A model generated the notes under the pieces. That model saw only the letters and a program-made list of their open reading frames with translations, was not told the DNA's origin and did no database searches. Made by a program: the position numbers and the translations under genes. This document shows, piece after piece, positions 2,856-43,669 of a stretch of 64,000 nt of DNA (position 1 is its first letter; every line of letters begins with the position of its first letter). The stretch comes from Desulfuromonas sp. AOP6 (GTDB lineage: Bacteria; Desulfobacterota; Desulfuromonadia; Desulfuromonadales; SZUA-540), in the NCBI RefSeq assembly GCF_009731355.2, contig NZ_AP022810.1, forward strand, positions 1,020,001-1,084,000, read 5' to 3'.

Positions 2856-3785
2856 CTACGCCTTAGATAAGGCAAGTTCAGTAGCGTAAGCGGGAGAGTT
2901 GGCGTTGAGGGCGTTATCGATTTCTTCCTCGGAAAATTCGACCAGTTTCCAGCAGTCAGGTGAAGACAGAATTTGCTCAACCATTTTATGGTTGATGTCA
3001 TGCCCAGCCTTGAAGGTTTTAAAGTGGCCAAGAATTGGGTAACCCAGGAGGCTGAAGTCTCCTACGGAATCCAGTATCTTGTGGCGGACGAACTCGTCGC
3101 TGAACCGAAGTCCCTCCGGGTTGAGAATTTTGTCTTCGCCAATGACCACGGCATTTTCCATCGAGCCTCCACGGGCCAACCCATTGGCTTTAAGATATTC
3201 CACCTCTTTTAGAAACCCGAAAGTGCGGGCCGGTGCGATTTCTTTAATGAAGGCTTCGCGAGAAAACTTTAGAGACCGCTGTTGATGTGAGATGCAGGGA
3301 TGCTCAAAGGCAATCTCGGCGGTGATGCGAAAAAAGCGAGAAGGAATCAGGCTGACGCGTTTTTCTCCGTCAATGACCGTGATAGGCTTGCGAACCGCCA
3401 GGAATTTGCGGCTGCGGGCCAGGTTGCTCACCCCGGCGTCCTGCAGCAGTTCCACAAAAGGAACAGAGCTTCCATCCATGACCGGAATTTCAGGGCCGTC
3501 GATATCCACGTGAAGGTTGTCTATGCCAAAGGCTGTAAGCGCAGCCATAAAATGTTCAACGGTAGAAACCTGCAAGCCATTTTTACCCAAGACCGTAGCC
3601 AGCCGGGTGTCCACAACATTGGCTGAAATGGCTTCAATGGAAACCACGCGATCTCCTTCGGAACGGTGGAAAATGATGCCAGTTCCTGCCTCAGCAGGCC
3701 GAAGGGTCATGTTGATCCGATGGCCGGAGTGAAGGCCTATGCCGGATATGGAGGTCGTCTGGGCTATTGTGCGCTGAAAAATCAT
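2856..3785 (-). CDS. lpxC: UDP-3-O-acyl-N-acetylglucosamine deacetylase LpxC
   Basis: LpxC removes the N-acetyl group from UDP-3-O-acyl-GlcNAc, the first committed step of lipid A synthesis, in the cytosol and zinc-dependent. The 309-aa product has the normal length. Visible signatures are VEHFMAAL (zinc His), DGPEIPVMDGSS, the zinc pair in HKILDSVGD, and HDINHKM with the catalytic His. The ATG at 3785 is preceded by AGGAGAA at good spacing; an in-frame ATG 14 codons upstream lacks this and would add a non-family extension. A -24/-12 promoter lies about 60 bp upstream and a terminator follows. In enterobacteria LpxC is controlled mainly by proteolysis; sigma-54 control would be a different strategy. 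Confidence 0.97.
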   Translation of the reverse strand: MIFQRTIAQTTSISGIGLHSGHRINMTLRPAEAGTGIIFHRSEGDRVVSIEAISANVVDTRLATVLGKNGLQVSTVEHFMAALTAFGIDNLHVDIDGPEIPVMDGSSVPFVELLQDAGVSNLARSRKFLAVRKPITVIDGEKRVSLIPSRFFRITAEIAFEHPCISHQQRSLKFSREAFIKEIAPARTFGFLKEVEYLKANGLARGGSMENAVVIGEDKILNPEGLRFSDEFVRHKILDSVGDFSLLGYPILGHFKTFKAGHDINHKMVEQILSSPDCWKLVEFSEEEIDNALNANSPAYATELALSKA

Positions 3786-4027: not shown

Positions 4028-5719
4028 CTACAGTCGGCCAGAACGGAGAATGGCGACAGCAAGCCAAAGTCCTAGGAATCCGGCAATGGAATATCCCAGC
4101 AGACCTAGTATCGGGAAGTTGAATAGGAGGGGTCCCTTTTCGGTTTGCATGATAAGGGATGACCCCACAATAAGGGAGCCGATAACCAGGCTGAAGGAGA
4201 GTCTGTTGCTCGATTTGTCGAGATCGGAAATCATTTTTTCCAGTCCCCGGTGTTCCAGGTCGATCTTGAATTTGTTTTTGTTTATCCGGTTGATGAATTC
4301 CTTCAGGTCACTGGGAAGGGTTTTGGCAAAAGAACCATAGTCCTGCAGAACCTTCAGAAGCTCTTTTCCGAGGGCCGCGGGAGCCAGTCTTTCATGAATG
4401 ACCTTTTCAAGAAAGGGCTTTAGATGGTCGATCATATTGAAGTCGGGGTCCAGTTGGCGTCCTATCCCTTCGATCGTGATCAGGGCCTTCGCCAGCAGGA
4501 TGAGGTCAGAGCGAAACTTGATGCGATTATGGGAGAGAATTTCCACGAATTCCGACAGGAGTTTTCCCGCGTTGATTTCCTGTAAAGGAATTTCATAATA
4601 ATCGTCGATGAAATCGGTCAAATCCCGGCGTAGATCTCTTATATTGGATTCGTCCGTGAGCTCGCCCGAATAGAGCAGCATGTTAATAATGCGGTCGACG
4701 TCTCTTTTAAGGACGGCGACAAGAAGATCGACCAGCTGGTATTTCAGACTGTCATCAAGTCGCCCGACCATGCCGTAGTCCAGAAAACAGACCTTGTCCT
4801 GCTCCAGGATATAGATATTGCCCGGGTGGGGATCCCCGTGAAAAAGGCCATGGATAAGGACCTGCTTGAGGATGGCGTCTGCTCCATGTCGGGCAATGGC
4901 TTTGAGATCGTGGCCCTTCTGCCGTAATTGATCGAAATGAGAGACCTTGATCCCGTCCACATACTCCATAGTCAGGACGGTTTCCCCCGTGTACTTCCAG
5001 AAAACCCGCGGGACATGGATTGTCGGATCATCGGAAAAGTTGGCGGCGAAACGGTCTATAGTGTGTCCTTCCCGGGAAAAGTCCATTTCTCGGTAGATCG
5101 TGCGCCGAAATTCTTTGACAATTCCGGTAGGATCGTACAGTTCGCCTGTTGGCAGGTGCTTCTCTACCAGATAGGCCAGTCCCATGAGGATGTCGAGGTC
5201 CGTTTCGACTATCTGTTCGATCCGAGGCCGTCGGACTTTCAAAACCACCTCTTCGCCCGTTGTCAATCGGGCCCGGTGTACCTGGGAAATCGACGCGGAA
5301 GCCAGAGGTGTGACAGAAAAGCAGGCGAAGAGTTCCTCGACGGATTGGCTCAGTTCCTGGGTGATCTGTTTGCGAACCTCGTCGGCTGGTATGGGAGGAA
5401 CCTTGTCCTGCAGCTTTCGCAATTCTTCGATAAATTCGGCTGGTATGACGTCAGGGCGCGTCGACAGGAGTTGACCGAGCTTTATGAAGGTCGGCCCCAG
5501 TTCCTCCATGGCCAGGCGCAGGCGCTCTGCCTGGGTCAAACGTTCCAATTCTCTGGAGACCTTGCCCAAAGTTACAATCTTCCGTCCCAACTCAATGTAG
5601 TAGGTGATGTTGAGCTGCTCTATCAAGCCGCCAAAGCCATATTTGATAAGGATCGACAGGATGTCCCGATAGCGTCTGATGGAACGGATATTGCGATTGA
5701 TGCGGGTGAAGGTCAGCAT
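4028..5719 (-). CDS. UbiB/ABC1 (AarF) family atypical kinase
   Basis: The 563-aa protein belongs to the protein-kinase-like UbiB/ADCK family, linked to isoprenoid quinone synthesis or transport. Visible hallmarks are the KxGQ motif in FIKLGQLLSTRPD (about residue 80), the Ala-rich nucleotide loop ASASISQVH, the VLKV lysine, the catalytic HGDPHPGNI and the metal-binding LDYGMVG. Two hydrophobic helices at the C terminus (about 500-560) anchor it to the membrane, as in bacterial UbiB. It follows the phasin-like gene by 13 bp and is probably translated from the same mRNA. Whether it serves ubiquinone or menaquinone cannot be read here; the likely host lineage uses menaquinone. The substrate of the family is still unclear. 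Confidence 0.9.
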   Translation of the reverse strand: MLTFTRINRNIRSIRRYRDILSILIKYGFGGLIEQLNITYYIELGRKIVTLGKVSRELERLTQAERLRLAMEELGPTFIKLGQLLSTRPDVIPAEFIEELRKLQDKVPPIPADEVRKQITQELSQSVEELFACFSVTPLASASISQVHRARLTTGEEVVLKVRRPRIEQIVETDLDILMGLAYLVEKHLPTGELYDPTGIVKEFRRTIYREMDFSREGHTIDRFAANFSDDPTIHVPRVFWKYTGETVLTMEYVDGIKVSHFDQLRQKGHDLKAIARHGADAILKQVLIHGLFHGDPHPGNIYILEQDKVCFLDYGMVGRLDDSLKYQLVDLLVAVLKRDVDRIINMLLYSGELTDESNIRDLRRDLTDFIDDYYEIPLQEINAGKLLSEFVEILSHNRIKFRSDLILLAKALITIEGIGRQLDPDFNMIDHLKPFLEKVIHERLAPAALGKELLKVLQDYGSFAKTLPSDLKEFINRINKNKFKIDLEHRGLEKMISDLDKSSNRLSFSLVIGSLIVGSSLIMQTEKGPLLFNFPILGLLGYSIAGFLGLWLAVAILRSGRL

Positions 5720-26608: not shown

Positions 26609-26806
26609 ATGATGTGGCTCTCCACTCCGTCCGTGGATCGTTCGGCCTCACAGCGAGTACCGACGAAGTGGGTTTTCTTGTAGGCACATCAGGCGTCCCA
26701 TTCAAAGATGGGCTGGCTCACCGCGCCCCTGAAGAAATCCCGAATAAACGTTATTCCGCCTGGGCGTTCTGACCTCACCTGACGGGCAGAGAGCACACAA
26801 TCATTT
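26576..26806 (-). ncRNA. Predicted structured small RNA, 6S RNA-like
   Basis: The unit has its own promoter and terminator and no open frame with a ribosome site. Its two ends pair: 5' arm 26804-26789 (ATGATTGTGTGCTCTC) with 3' arm 26622-26609 (GAGAGCCACATCAT), followed inward by CCCGTC (26786-26781) with GACGGA (26631-26626), then a large, less paired centre and smaller hairpins. The core of about 195 nt closed by a long terminal stem with an open centre is the 6S RNA architecture, which binds RNA polymerase. RNase P, tmRNA and SRP RNA signatures are absent. The class assignment is inference; the existence of an RNA gene is better supported. Confidence 0.55.
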
Positions 26807-31636: not shown

Positions 31637-31713
31637 GCGTCGCTAGCTCAGCTGGATAGAGCATCTGACTTCGGATCAGAGGGTCGGGGGTTCGAATCCT
31701 CCGCGGCGCGCCA
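31637..31713 (+). tRNA. tRNA-Arg (anticodon TCG)
   Basis: A 77-nt cloverleaf can be drawn by hand. Acceptor GCGTCGC / GCGGCGC, D arm GCTC / GAGC, anticodon stem TCTGA / TCAGA with loop CTTCGGA (anticodon TCG, reads CGA), 5-nt variable loop, T arm with TTCGAAT, discriminator G and encoded CCA. It has its own terminator. Confidence 0.97.
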
Positions 31714-38431: not shown

Positions 38432-40798
38432 TCATTGGGTCGATCCGTCCGTCTTTTCGATTTTTTGCAGAGTCTCCATCAGGTGGGCTCGGATCTGGTC
38501 GCTGGTGGCAAGACCCAGCGCCTTGCGGGCGGCCTTGCGCGCCACCTCGCCGGGCAGGTCGTGCAGGAAGGCCTTGGTGCGCGGGATGAAGGGGGCGGCC
38601 ATGGAAAATTCCTGAATGCCCAACCCAACCAGGGCCAGCAGGTTAACAGGGTCTGAGGCCATTTCGCCGCAGACGCAGACGTCGATGCCTGCTTTCTGGG
38701 CCACGTCCGTTGTGTCTTTGAGTACGCGCAGAATGGCGGGATGCAGGGGGTCGTAATAGCGATTGACCAGGGGATTGTTGCGATCGGCTGCCAACATGTA
38801 CTGGATGAGGTCATTGGTTCCCATGGCGAAAAAATCGACCTCTCGGGCCAGCTGTTCCGCGATGGTCACGGCCGCGGGAACCTCAATCATGATTCCCAGT
38901 GGGATATTGCGGGCGTAGGCGATCCCCTCCCTGTCGAGATTGACCCGGGCCTGGGCCATTACCTTCTTGCAGGCCCTGACTTCGTCGAGAGTCGATATCA
39001 TGGGCAGAAGCATTTTGACCGATCCATGCATGCCCGCCATCAGGATGGCCTCGATCTGCGTACAGAAAATATCCTGATTTTCCAGAGAGACCCTCACAGA
39101 ACGCCAGCCCATGAAGGGGTTGTCTTCCTTGGGCGGGCTGAAATAGGGCAGGGCCTTGTCGCCGCCGATGTCCAGGGTGCGGATCGTGACCGACTGGCCG
39201 GGGAAGCCTTCGACCACACGGCGGTAAAGCTGGTACTGATCTTCGCGGTCGGGGAAGTTGCCGCGGGTCATGTAGGGGAATTCGGTGCGGTAGAGCCCCA
39301 CTCCTTCAGCACCGTTGCGCTGGGCAATGCTGACATCGCTGACCAGGCCGATGTTGGCGCGCAGGATAATACGCGTTCCGTCGGCCGTCTGGGCCGGAAT
39401 GTCGCGGAATTCCTCCAGTCGGTGCAGCTCCCGGCTGCTGTCTTCCTCCAGGCGGCGGTACTCCTCGCGCACATGCTGCGGCGGGTCGATGTACAGACAG
39501 CCGGAGTTGGCGTCGAGGATGATCTGGTTTTCCGGGGTGACTTCCCGAAGCAGGCCTTTGACGCCGACCAGGGCGGGGATGCCCATGGACTTGGCCATGA
39601 TGGCGGCGTGGGAGTTGCGTTCGCCGGCCTCGGTGGCAATGCCCATAATGTAATCCGCATCGAGCATGGCCATATCGGAAGGGAGGATTTCGCGGGCGAC
39701 CAGAATGCCCGGTTCCTTGAACTGGGGCATGTGATCTTCCTGGCCGGCCAGGTTCGCTGCCAGGCGGCGCCCGATATCCTTCATGTCGGCGGCCCGCTCA
39801 CGCAGATAGGGATCCTCCATGCGTTCGAAGGCCTCAATGTATTCGCCGACAATCTTTTTCAGGGAATAGGCGGCGCCATGTCCCTGTTTGATCTCGTCGT
39901 GCAGGCGCTCCAGAAAGCCCCGGTCTTCAAGAATCATCAGATGGGTGTGAAAGATGGCCGCCGCACTCTCCGAGAGGCGCTCGGCCATGCGCTTTTCCAG
40001 GAAGATGGTCTGGATGCGGGTTTTCTCGAAGGCGCTGTCAAGTCGCGCGATCTCCTCCTCCACCTGGGCCTGCCCCTCGTCGCCGAGGTCGGCGAGGCCC
40101 AGTCCCGAATCGAGGATGTGGGCCGGGCCGGAAACGACGCCGGGATAGGCCGTCGTCCCGCGCAGAGCAGCGCTACGAGACTCTTCCCGCATTGACTCGG
40201 GAGAGATCAGGGGCTTGCGGCTCTCTTCAAGCTGTCGGATAAAGCGGCTGGTTTCTTCTTCTTTGCGGCGGATGGAATCGAGGAGATGAGCGTTAATGAC
40301 GATGGAGCTGATCTGGAAAGCGATGGTGGAAAGAGCGCTGATCTCTTGCGCAGTAAACTGTCGGGTCTCCTTGGTCTGGATGACGATGACCCCCAGGGGA
40401 CTCTTGCGGTCGAAGAGGGGAATGCCGAGAAAAGAGTGATAGCGCTCTTCTCCTGTTTCCTTGAAATAACGGTAGCGCGGATGGGACTGGGGCTCCTGGA
40501 TGGCGACGGCGTGGCGGCTCTCGGCGGCCATGCCCGTCAAACCCTCGCCGATCTGCAGGGTGACTTTTCCCACGGCTTTTCTGGAAAGTCCCTTGCTGGC
40601 CCGCAGCCGCAAGGTCAGCCCGTCTTCATCGAGGAGGTAGATGGAACAGACTTCCGACTTCATGCGGCGGGCCACCAGGGTGACAATATTTTTTAGTGTC
40701 TCACCGAGGTCATGGGACTGGAGGATAAGAGTACTTATGTCTTCCAGGGTGGTTACCCCTAGGCGCTCTTTGCCGGGTCTGGTCATATCGCGGTCCAT
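38432..40798 (-). CDS. ptsP: PTS-Ntr enzyme I (PtsP), GAF-containing PEP phosphotransferase
   Basis: 788 aa. An N-terminal GAF domain (about 20-165) precedes a full enzyme I: N-terminal linker domain, the phospho-His in ERNSHAAIMAKSMGIPAL, and the PEP-binding TIM barrel with LYRTEFPYM, IRTLDIGGDKALPY, MIEVPAAV and the C-terminal FAMGTNDLIQYMLAADR (two parts). It transfers phosphate from PEP to NPr in the nitrogen-linked PTS. In enterobacteria its GAF domain senses glutamine. No clear ribosome site precedes the ATG at 40798. No ptsN or ptsO is nearby. Confidence 0.95.
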   Translation of the reverse strand: MDRDMTRPGKERLGVTTLEDISTLILQSHDLGETLKNIVTLVARRMKSEVCSIYLLDEDGLTLRLRASKGLSRKAVGKVTLQIGEGLTGMAAESRHAVAIQEPQSHPRYRYFKETGEERYHSFLGIPLFDRKSPLGVIVIQTKETRQFTAQEISALSTIAFQISSIVINAHLLDSIRRKEEETSRFIRQLEESRKPLISPESMREESRSAALRGTTAYPGVVSGPAHILDSGLGLADLGDEGQAQVEEEIARLDSAFEKTRIQTIFLEKRMAERLSESAAAIFHTHLMILEDRGFLERLHDEIKQGHGAAYSLKKIVGEYIEAFERMEDPYLRERAADMKDIGRRLAANLAGQEDHMPQFKEPGILVAREILPSDMAMLDADYIMGIATEAGERNSHAAIMAKSMGIPALVGVKGLLREVTPENQIILDANSGCLYIDPPQHVREEYRRLEEDSSRELHRLEEFRDIPAQTADGTRIILRANIGLVSDVSIAQRNGAEGVGLYRTEFPYMTRGNFPDREDQYQLYRRVVEGFPGQSVTIRTLDIGGDKALPYFSPPKEDNPFMGWRSVRVSLENQDIFCTQIEAILMAGMHGSVKMLLPMISTLDEVRACKKVMAQARVNLDREGIAYARNIPLGIMIEVPAAVTIAEQLAREVDFFAMGTNDLIQYMLAADRNNPLVNRYYDPLHPAILRVLKDTTDVAQKAGIDVCVCGEMASDPVNLLALVGLGIQEFSMAAPFIPRTKAFLHDLPGEVARKAARKALGLATSDQIRAHLMETLQKIEKTDGSTQ

Positions 40799-40966
40799 GT
40801 ATGGTGGAATTACTTGAAGTGCACATCAAGGGAGCAAAAACAACACTATGATAACAGCTGGTTTGAACTTCGCCATCGAAAAAGTTCACTGAGGCAATGC
40901 AAGATCGGGTCCGGCGACAGGGTGAGAGGGGACACGTTTTTTAATGAGCGTATGAGTGGCTTGCAT

Positions 40967-41007
40967 AAAAAAAGCGCCGCCCAGGGGAGAGAGGACCCGG
41001 GCGACGC
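40967..41007 (-). terminator. Terminator of the predicted sigma-54-dependent RNA
   Basis: Minus-strand stem GCGTCGCCCGGG / CCTGGGCGGCGC (one or two mismatches) around TCCTCTCTCC, followed by seven T residues. It is 170 bp upstream of ptsP and 270 bp downstream of the regulator gene. Confidence 0.88.
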
Positions 41008-41066
41008 CAATGGGGGCAGTGGTGTGTCGTAGTAAAATCTGCCTTTATCCCCAAATTTTAGTCACT
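40967..41066 (-). ncRNA. Predicted sigma-54-dependent small RNA of about 100 nt
   Basis: The unit runs from the start predicted by the -24/-12 promoter (41065-41066) to an intrinsic terminator. It contains no start codon with a ribosome site. A 5' hairpin can be drawn with stem TAAAAT / ATTTTA; its loop exposes GGGGATAAAGG, a purine-rich stretch able to pair with pyrimidine targets. The terminator hairpin forms the 3' end. An alternative is that this is an attenuated leader of ptsP, with read-through across the terminator. Confidence 0.55.
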
Positions 41067-41075
41067 GATATAGTA

Positions 41076-41091
41076 AGCAATCGTCGTGCCA
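41076..41091 (-). promoter_or_regulatory. Consensus sigma-54 promoter
   Basis: Minus strand TGGCACGACGATTGCT matches TGGCACG-N4-TTGCW at every consensus position. It is the best -24/-12 site in the window and lies 190 bp downstream of a gene for a sigma-54 activator on the same strand. Confidence 0.85.
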
Positions 41092-41147: not shown

Positions 41148-41270
41148 GCTGTTGTGTCTTTAGTGGCACAGCAAGTTGGTGGGCAACTATATGAAAGAAG
41201 CTGAAAGGGCTAGAAATAGCCTCCCGCGAAGTGTGTCATGGGTGGCATGGTTATGGCGTGCTGTTGTGCC
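41148..41270. promoter_or_regulatory. Repeated GCTGTTGTG/TGTGCC elements upstream of the sigma-54 promoter
   Basis: GCTGTTGTGTC at 41148-41158 and GCTGTTGTGCC at 41260-41270 are direct repeats; GTGGCACAGC at 41163-41172 is a related element in opposite orientation. They lie 60-190 bp upstream of the promoter, where enhancer sites for sigma-54 activators are found. The element TGTGCC / GGCACA recurs in the palindrome before the regulator gene. Confidence 0.4.
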
Positions 41271-41279
41271 GTAGTTGGC

Positions 41280-43577
41280 TCAGTCGCCAGTGGCTTGTTG
41301 GAAGTCACTTCCCTTGAGACCGTGTCGGTCCAGCAGACGATAAAAAGTGCGCCTGGGAATGCCAGCTGTGCGAGCCGCCGCCGAAACATTGCCGCCGGCC
41401 TCCTGCAGATAGCGCTTGATCAGGCCTTTTTCCATGTGGGAGAGGTGCTTGTCGCGCTGGCTGCGGAAGGAGACATCAGCCTCTTCTCCCCCGGTCGCCG
41501 GTGTTTTCAGGGCCAGTTCGGCAAAAACGACGGGAAGGTTTTCCAGGCGGATGATGCGATCCTGGGAGAGGACGGCCGCCCGTTCGATGATATTTTGCAG
41601 TTCGCGAATGTTTCCCGGCCAGGGGTACTGTCGCATGGCATCAATAGCCCTGTCCTCGATGCCGACGATCGGTTTGTTCAAACGTTTGCTGGCCCGCAGA
41701 AGGAAGTGAGTCACCAGGTGCTCCAGGGACTGGAGCCGGTTGCGCAAAGGCGGCATGGTGATGGTGAAAACATTGAGGCGGTAGAAGAGGTCTTCCCGGA
41801 ACCAGCCCTCGCGGATGCCATTCTCCAGATTCTTGTTGGTAGCGGCGATCAGTCGCACGTCCACCTTGATGGAGGTATTGCCGCCCACGGGACGGATTTC
41901 GCCGCTGTCGAGGACGCGTAGCAGCTCGGCCTGCACTTTGGGGGTGATGTCGCCGATCTCGTCCAGGAAAATAGTCCCGCCGCCGGCCGCTTCAAACAGG
42001 CCTTTCTTGTCGGCGGTGGCGCCGGTGAAGGCTCCTTTGCGGTGGCCGAAGAGTTCGCTCTCCAGCAGGCTGTCGGTCAAGGTGGTGCAGTTGACCGTTA
42101 CCAATGGCTTGTCGGCTCGGTGGCTGTGGGCGTGGATGGCGCGGGCGGTGAGTTCCTTGCCGGTGCCGCTCTCGCCCCGGATAAGGACCGTGGTCGGTGT
42201 CGGGCCGACCTGGCGGATAAGCTTGAGAACGTCCAGTGTGTGGGTGTCGTCACCGATAATGGAAGCCTCACCGTACTCCTGGCTGAGGGCGCGCTGGGCC
42301 AGTTCGTACTTTTGGGCGAGGTTGAAGCGGTCTTCCTCGAGACGCTTAAGGGAATAGGGCAGGCACATGTCCTCTTCGGCCAGTCCCTGGAAGACGGCGA
42401 CGGCGTGTTCCCGACAGGTGGGGTAGCCGCAGGCCCCACAGTCGAGTTCGTCCCGTTCAACGAACTTGTTGGTTGCCTGCAGGATTTTGCGAATGCTCTC
42501 GCCGCTGGGAGGCGGCAGGCGCCGAAATTTATTTTTGAAGGACCGCCGCAGGTCAGGCAGTTTGTCCCCCTCCGTATAGGCGGTGGCGGTGACTGTCTGC
42601 GCGTTGGTGTCATGGCTCTGAAAATAGTTGATGATCAGGTTGCGCTTGGAAAAATTGGTCAGGCGGTTGTTTTTGCCGGGTCCGCCGATGCAGCCGCCGT
42701 TGCAGAAGCGGATGTCGACCCACTTGGGGGTGATGCGCTTGGCCGCCAGATCCTTGACCAGCTCCAGGGCGCTCTCTTCGCCGCCGGCGGAGATAAAGTC
42801 GGGGTTGAGAAAGTCGTTGGGCACGTCAAAGGCCTGAAAGGGCCCACCGGCAATGCCGAACAGCCGGCCCGTCCCGGGCAGGAGACCGTCAAAGGGGGCA
42901 TCGCCTAACCTGGGCAGGTCGACGGGGTGGCTCTTGAGCATCTGGTTGAGTTCCTGATAGGTCAGCACCACATCAATGGCCCCGGCGACCTGTTCTGATT
43001 CGATTTCAAATTTTCCGGCGATGCATGAGCTGATATAAACGACTTTGGTCTGGGGCCCGCGGCGCCCCTTGATAAATCGACCGATAGCCACCATGGGGGA
43101 GACGATCCCCATCAGGTTGCGAACGAGTTGCGGATAGTGTCGTTCAATCAGGTCGACAATGGTGGGGCAGTGGCTTGAAATCAGCGGATCACTACCCGGC
43201 TGATCGATCAGCCGGGCGTATTCGGAGCGAATGAGCTCGACCCCGGCAGCACCCTCGTGCACCTCGCTGAAGCCGAGCCGCTTGAGGCCGGTAGCCAGCT
43301 GGCCGGGACGTACATCATGGAAAAAGGCGGGGAAAGAGCAGCCGAGCACGGCGACGACGGGATCCTTGCCGGCCAGCAGACGCTGGGTTTCTTCCATGCA
43401 GTCGCTGATAATCTTGGCCTGCTGGGAGCACACTTTGATGCATTTGCCGCAGCCGATGCAGCGGTCGTGGATGACCTCGGCGTATTCCTGTTTGACCTTG
43501 ATGGCCTTCACCGGGCAGTTGCGCACGCAGGCATAGCATTTGCGGCAGCGTTCCTTGACGGTAATGATCGGACCCAT
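41280..43577 (-). CDS. Sigma-54 activator with FeFe-hydrogenase-like sensor domain
   Basis: 765 aa. Order: two [4Fe-4S] ferredoxin motifs (Cys 11/14/17/21 and 40/43/46/50); a domain like the large subunit of FeFe hydrogenase (about 70-320) that keeps the four H-cluster cubane ligands Cys137, Cys185, Cys292 and Cys296 but has His136 where catalytic enzymes have the proton-relay Cys; a further Fe-S domain (Cys 380/383/388/405); an AAA+ sigma-54 domain with GESGTGKE and GAFTGA; and a Fis-type helix-turn-helix. It likely senses H2 or redox state and activates sigma-54 promoters, without a partner kinase. GGAG sits 5 nt before the ATG at 43577; a GTG at 43592 is less likely. Confidence 0.92.
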   Translation of the reverse strand: MGPIITVKERCRKCYACVRNCPVKAIKVKQEYAEVIHDRCIGCGKCIKVCSQQAKIISDCMEETQRLLAGKDPVVAVLGCSFPAFFHDVRPGQLATGLKRLGFSEVHEGAAGVELIRSEYARLIDQPGSDPLISSHCPTIVDLIERHYPQLVRNLMGIVSPMVAIGRFIKGRRGPQTKVVYISSCIAGKFEIESEQVAGAIDVVLTYQELNQMLKSHPVDLPRLGDAPFDGLLPGTGRLFGIAGGPFQAFDVPNDFLNPDFISAGGEESALELVKDLAAKRITPKWVDIRFCNGGCIGGPGKNNRLTNFSKRNLIINYFQSHDTNAQTVTATAYTEGDKLPDLRRSFKNKFRRLPPPSGESIRKILQATNKFVERDELDCGACGYPTCREHAVAVFQGLAEEDMCLPYSLKRLEEDRFNLAQKYELAQRALSQEYGEASIIGDDTHTLDVLKLIRQVGPTPTTVLIRGESGTGKELTARAIHAHSHRADKPLVTVNCTTLTDSLLESELFGHRKGAFTGATADKKGLFEAAGGGTIFLDEIGDITPKVQAELLRVLDSGEIRPVGGNTSIKVDVRLIAATNKNLENGIREGWFREDLFYRLNVFTITMPPLRNRLQSLEHLVTHFLLRASKRLNKPIVGIEDRAIDAMRQYPWPGNIRELQNIIERAAVLSQDRIIRLENLPVVFAELALKTPATGGEEADVSFRSQRDKHLSHMEKGLIKRYLQEAGGNVSAAARTAGIPRRTFYRLLDRHGLKGSDFQQATGD

Positions 43578-43640
43578 GCAGACTCCAGGCACTCAGGGAA
43601 GATTGAGGGGGTGAACCGCTCTTGGTGCGGCAGTGGGGCG

Positions 43641-43669
43641 ATTGTGCCAGCGGTGGCACGGTGAGTCAA
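43641..43669 (-). promoter_or_regulatory. Promoter with embedded palindromic operator for the hydrogenase-like regulator
   Basis: Minus strand TTGACT (43669-43664), 17-bp spacer, CACAAT (43646-43641). The palindrome GTGCCACCGCTGGCAC (43659-43644, 6-bp arms) fills the spacer and overlaps the -10. This is a usual position for a repressor or autoregulator. Confidence 0.55.

Follow-up and report, generated by a model that had tools for sequence, protein, structure and literature searches.

Using comparative genomics we identify, in the gap behind a sigma-54 activator gene of Desulfuromonas sp. AOP6, a conserved element that is probably a stand-alone, trans-acting small RNA, which would be made by sigma-54 RNA polymerase, be activated by the product of the neighboring gene through upstream dyads, and pair with ribosome-binding sites through the loop of its terminator. 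If this is correct, most sampled genomes of the order Desulfuromonadales carry an RNA family linked to an iron-sulfur activator of the one-component type that has a hydrogenase-like sensor, and the output of that sensor becomes testable. To our knowledge, few small RNAs originate from sigma-54 polymerase. A sigma-54-dependent small RNA had been proposed at this place from the letters of a 64,000-nucleotide stretch of the genome (hereafter the window), and the proposal is strongly supported because promoter, fold, terminator and activator-linked dyads are conserved; the part of it that did not stand, namely the seed, is taken up with the fold below.

The original prediction had described a full-consensus -24/-12 site and a strong intrinsic terminator without an intervening open frame, placed in the gap between the activator gene and ptsP on their strand. 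All of this is borne out, with the units following each other on the minus strand in the order activator, RNA, ptsP:

41280 to 43592, minus strand: sigma-54 activator gene, with a likely true start at an ATG near 43577
41076 to 41091, minus strand: sigma-54 -24/-12 promoter, TGGCACGACGATTGCT
40967 to 41066, minus strand: predicted small RNA, about 100 nt long, its start placed from the -24/-12 site and its 3' end in the U-run
41011 to 41053, minus strand: 5' hairpin of the predicted folds, closed by GGGG/CCCC (helix 1)
40973 to 41008, minus strand: terminator hairpin of 13 bp (helix 2), followed by a U-run to 40967
40986 to 40995, minus strand: terminator loop, UCCUCUCUCC, the proposed seed
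40848 to 40853, minus strand: TATCAT box, proposed -10 of ptsP, between the terminator and ptsP
38432 to 40798, minus strand: ptsP, coding for a PEP-protein phosphotransferase with a GAF domain, a neighbor outside the RNA unit

The promoter, read from 41091 to 41076, matches the full sigma-54 consensus, and the pattern TGGCAC-N5-TTGCW occurs nine times in the 3.27 Mb genome, as against three occurrences of the reversed control pattern. We take the RNA to start near 41066, where the usual sigma-54 spacing places it, and inspection of the transcript by eye found no AUG between this start and the U-run. The strands of the terminator stem pair 41008-40996 with 40985-40973 around a loop of 10 nt; a simple terminator scan misses this hairpin because its loop limit is 8.

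An initial DNA search of 58 genomes gave matches in 16. The same anatomy was seen at 13 places including the window, and three other matches (L022-L024) were judged to be chance. A covariance model built from those 13 RNAs, with the promoter left out, matches 93 of the 136 genomes of the order (E up to 0.01) and, in a search across the class, 99 of 277 genomes (E up to 0.001), seven of them outside the order. The set analyzed here comprises 87 RNAs, that is the window and the 86 strongest among the matches listed (E up to 7.8e-5). Weaker matches were left out of the counts, and three of these (G020, G034 and G081) resemble members; two further RNAs, L145 and L146, resemble the chance matches and are included in counts of 87 and excluded from counts of 85. 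The alignment was prepared from 83 sources after exclusion of these two and of the near-duplicates L079 and L086.

Immediately before 84 of the 87 RNAs there is a -24/-12 site with a score of 13 or more out of 15, as opposed to 0.9% of 4290 control windows from the same loci. The three RNAs that lack the site are the two chance-like matches and L139, which also lacks the activator. Among the 79 distinct sequences 94% of the cells pair (95% in helix 1, 94% in helix 2) and 12 of the 15 pairs are changed on both sides; in the GGGG/CCCC helix such changes are seen in four of four pairs. The covariation score is 0.40, compared with 0.18 for shuffled and no more than 0.09 for slid versions, a test in which the structure is favored because the alignment had been fitted to the covariance model. 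Conservation of promoter, hairpin and terminator in relatives had been named as a check on the original prediction, and across the order we indeed find the promoter, covarying stems and a terminator loop in which 81 of 85 members retain CUCUCUCC. These patterns bear on the explanation that promoter and terminator have come together by chance, or that the hairpin is merely the terminator of the activator gene. The element does lie behind that gene on the same strand, and the site pattern is present eight more times in the genome; however, across the order there is conservation and covariation of promoter, 5' hairpin and loop, even at loci that lack the activator, and we give this explanation almost no credence.

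One family of the RNAs (f8; L084, L090, L093, L115 and others) contains an extra conserved stretch, GUUCCCGCCCGAACGG, within the 5' hairpin region. Membership outside the order was considered and rejected, the seven matches from the 141 other genomes of the class being weak and their sequences resembling unrelated terminators, with the exception of L233. At this locus, which belongs to another order, TTGGCACGGCGATTGA precedes a hairpin whose terminator loop reads UCCUCC (around 3516-3597); this candidate RNA, a possible distant relative, has a -24-like box and lies about 11.5 kb behind the activator of its genome. A paralogue in the genome of the window was likewise dismissed, as the second-best model match (26.8 bits) proved to be a separate candidate whose start is sigma-70-like. 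This second candidate small RNA (L147; 2543386-2543467 of the genome, plus strand) is kept in a congener (L148), and the terminator hairpin of the pair also bears CCUCUCUCC.

The 100-nt RNA is predicted to fold with -35 kcal/mol (z -2.96; one of 200 shuffles equally stable), and a 103-nt version gives a z of -2.28 (9 of 200 shuffles as good). The 5' hairpin had been thought to expose the purine-rich GGGGATAAAGG; its GGGG is instead paired with CCCC in the folds predicted for the window and for 11 relatives. With these G's engaged in a helix and the terminator loop constituting a fixed, unpaired, C/U-rich element, GGGGATAAAGG is unsupported as a seed, and in the modeled structures the exposed element is the terminator loop.

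The activator combines a ferredoxin-type Fer4 domain, an iron-only hydrogenase large-subunit domain, an FeS domain, a sigma-54 AAA+ domain and a Fis-type HTH. Four cysteines of the sensor region are conserved in 59 of 59 named orthologues, and we take them to be the ligands of the H-cluster. The residue preceding the first of them is histidine in all 59, at what is presumably the position of the proton-relay cysteine of the catalytic enzymes, and 56 of the 59 contain GAFTGA or GSFTGA. Together, the retained cysteines, the histidine at the proton-relay position and the GAFTGA/GSFTGA motif suggest that the protein is a sensor rather than an enzyme, and its iron-sulfur/[FeFe]-hydrogenase-like domain would then sense a redox or gas signal. 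The activator gene lies directly upstream of the RNA in 78 of the 87 loci, with 174-433 nt from the end of the activator match to the start of the RNA model in 77 of the 78; in the exception (L111) the activator alignment stops early, at -692. Conversely, the RNA is found behind 55 of the 59 named orthologues, the remainder being three Geobacter-type genomes and one contig end. Among the genomes that have it is that of a cultured species, Malonomonas rubra DSM 5091, with the RNA at 5515-5606 of locus L182. Six members judged to be real (L076, L083, L109, L142, L085 and L086) have retained the -24/-12 site although no activator gene adjoins them, and another activator must therefore serve these RNAs.

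Upstream of the promoter we noticed dyads of the form TGTGYCA-N4-TGRCACA. Those found in the window, to which no strand is assigned, are:

41153 to 41170: upstream dyad with 1 mismatch, proposed activator site
41232 to 41249: upstream dyad with 2 mismatches
41265 to 41282: upstream dyad with 2 mismatches, overlapping the stop codon of the activator gene
43643 to 43660: dyad with 1 mismatch in the likely promoter of the activator gene itself, between TTGACT and CACAAT boxes recognized by eye

With up to two mismatches allowed, the 230 nt preceding the promoter hold at least one dyad in 77 of the 78 loci with the activator, and two or more in 72 of them, as compared with 2 of the 9 RNA loci without it and 4 of 870 shuffles; these counts are descriptive and no independent discovery, because the motif was defined by eye on the same loci. 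What is found upstream of the RNA by way of sites for an enhancer-binding protein is this sequence motif. At up to one mismatch the genome of the window has four dyads and none of the reversed control, one lying at the RNA promoter, one at the likely promoter of the activator gene and two elsewhere. What speaks against the dyads as activator sites is that in two of six genomes of the order searched (G016 and G021) there are some such dyads elsewhere and none at the RNA promoter, where the dyads have two mismatches each. The dyads found elsewhere were examined as further sites (8 genomes, 7 loci read) and set aside: a sigma-54-like site lies within 600 nt in four, none convincing by eye. The co-occurrence of dyads and activator suggests that the activator, bound to the dyads ahead of the -24/-12 site, initiates transcription there, and the dyad in its own promoter raises the prospect of autoregulation, in which it may repress its own gene. 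Since the RNA would appear to be turned on by the adjoining activator, a redox or gas signal may pass through it.

The gene ptsP follows the RNA on the same strand in 67 of the 87 loci, and the original prediction had offered as its alternative an attenuated 5' leader of ptsP, in which the terminator would stop sigma-54 transcription unless a signal permits read-through. Yet 17 loci have the activator and the RNA and no ptsP within the 0.3-1.5 kb examined (two of these stretches end early), and in those read other genes lie downstream. The constant adjacency to, or co-transcription with, ptsP that a cis-acting leader would display is thus broken in these 17 loci. Six loci have ptsP without an adjacent activator, and at L076, where both are missing, the RNA is retained after two ABC-transporter genes. 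The terminator is between 40 and 585 nt away from the start of ptsP, and a TATAAT-like box (at least 5 of 6) that separates the two is present before ptsP in 58 of the 67 loci as against 670 of 1340 shuffles, a clear enrichment over a high shuffle rate. As ptsP stands behind only these 67 RNAs, as the RNA persists without it and as a promoter-like box intervenes, a ptsP leader is unsupported as the conserved function, and we regard it as quite improbable. The stand-alone RNA would accordingly stop at its own terminator, before ptsP.

Known small RNAs that are driven by sigma-54 polymerase with an enhancer-binding protein and end in an intrinsic terminator include the Qrr RNAs with LuxO in Vibrio, NrsZ with NtrC and GlmY with GlrR. 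The RNA predicted in the window shares this design. It differs from all three in sequence and lineage, and in that its activator lies directly upstream and itself contains an iron-sulfur/[FeFe]-hydrogenase-like sensor domain. Searched in the region of the window and at 16 member loci, the RNA matches no Rfam family at cut-off; Rfam does recognize a 6S RNA (26615-26795, minus strand) and a tRNA (31637-31710, plus strand) in the window above cut-off. The atoC RNA (RF01733), known from the same class of bacteria, likewise consists of a hairpin and a terminator with a C/U-rich loop, but the window RNA scores 16.2-19.2 bits with its model (cut-off 50), none is found in the 16 member loci, the atoC RNA has a sigma-70-like box, and the genome of the window has an atoC RNA of its own elsewhere. 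The ftsZ-DE RNA (RF02985) has a comparable terminator with a CUCCCU loop, whereas the window RNA reaches only 23.3 bits against its cut-off of 72.2. In RepG of Helicobacter a C/U-rich terminator loop pairs with G-rich leaders, and alphaproteobacterial RNAs such as ar14 carry CCUCC-type loops. The C/U-rich loop, in RepG that of the terminator, is what they have in common with the RNA described here; the locus is unrelated, the ar14 model gives 16.5 bits against a cut-off of 58.8, and we know of no link of either to sigma-54. A literature search covering the accessible parts of papers such as PMC2864571, PMC2725144 and PMC12316311, with most subscription journals outside its reach, found no description of the RNA.

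By its sequence, the fixed loop most likely pairs with ribosome-binding sites of the GGAGAGAG type, which would lower translation of the bound mRNAs; the target side as a whole is put forward as a hypothesis. The motif GGAGAGAGG shortly before an ATG was matched 3, 3, 4 and 10 times in four genomes, with 2, 0, 4 and 1 matches of the reversed control, and does not stand above the control in two of them (G000, 3 against 2; G016, 4 against 4). One match is the large subunit of a [NiFeSe]-type hydrogenase (NF033181, above cut-off). The first eight orthologues of this hydrogenase all have GGAGAGAG, as opposed to none of 16 paralogues, two of which have GGAGAGA. Of six further orthologues used as a test, two have GGAGAGAG and four GGAGAGA only, which brings the orthologues to 10 of 14 for GGAGAGAG and 14 of 14 for the 7-nt GGAGAGA; the ten full matches stem from five families, and the orthologues are related by descent. 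Among 944 frames with 200 codons or more in the loci examined, 21 have GGAGAGAG within 20 nt before the ATG, many of them fetched for the motif. Predicted pairing with the loop RNA of the same genome has a median of -13.9 kcal/mol in 13 orthologues versus -8.1 kcal/mol in 15 paralogues (L374 and L348 left out), and the ranges overlap, with two paralogues at -11.1 and -13.2. These observations are suggestive of the [NiFeSe]-type hydrogenase as the best candidate target in genomes that have one; none was detected in the genome of the window at the cut-off used.

A fixed loop on a covarying stem would equally fit a real sigma-54 small RNA whose loop binds a protein, by titration or as a scaffold, instead of an mRNA. 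We know of no candidate protein for it, and the complementarity of the loop to a Shine-Dalgarno-like sequence and the motif common to the hydrogenase orthologues point, suggestively, away from such a role, which we consider unlikely. Other targets of a pairing loop were also considered. The mRNAs of ptsP and the activator were rejected, GGAGAGAG being absent from the 23 starts examined for each. An SLC13/DASS transporter was set aside as weak, with GGAGAGAG in 2 of the 12 start regions shown (15 loci returned). The SLC13/DASS gene of the window's genome (L003, 1501-1591; genome position 1310872 onward) has a -24/-12 site of consensus sequence, its ribosome-binding site is GGAGAGAG, and a HypF-like frame follows it.

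Orthologues of the activator, about 59-65% identical, are found in further orders of the class. There the slot behind it holds, 254-377 nt on, a frame of about 60 residues resembling ribbon-helix-helix proteins in 20 of the 21 loci read, with Pfam ribbon-helix-helix matches below cut-off; the frame used as query was itself taken from one of these loci, and L309 (activator not found) and L310 (a 100-base placeholder) are excluded from the 21. On a relaxed -24/-12 score, 20 of the 21 loci reach 14 or more, compared with 36 of 596 control stretches of 400 nt drawn from them, and 18 of the 21 have a dyad. Examples of the gene with a sigma-54-like site and dyads are seen in L190 (5535-5711), L191 (5542-5718) and L197 (5538-5711). 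The 87 RNA loci yielded no convincing match to the frame (one at E 5). It is conceivable, and we offer it only tentatively, that the [FeFe]-hydrogenase-like activator senses hydrogen or redox state, that the order-wide RNA it drives silences the [NiFeSe]-type hydrogenase and other mRNAs by way of its terminator loop, and that in related orders the ribbon-helix-helix-like protein takes this place under the same sensor, dyads and promoter slot, the output of a single signal having been switched between RNA and protein during evolution. Related lineages would in that case offer a natural example of an RNA and a small protein sharing one regulatory slot.

These comparisons also connect the Rfam atoC RNA to this activator gene. 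Comparison by eye places the atoC RNA, in other orders of the class, 60-190 nt upstream of the orthologous activator in 15 of the 20 highest-scoring matches; of the other five genomes three have no listed activator and two no place shown. In several genomes (e.g. G142, G143 and G257) it is located elsewhere. Rfam labels the atoC RNA as cis-regulatory. Its 5' end, read in 19 of the 20 loci (L249-L267; L268 was left out), resembles a sigma-70 -10 box, and the atoC RNA may therefore be another stand-alone RNA.
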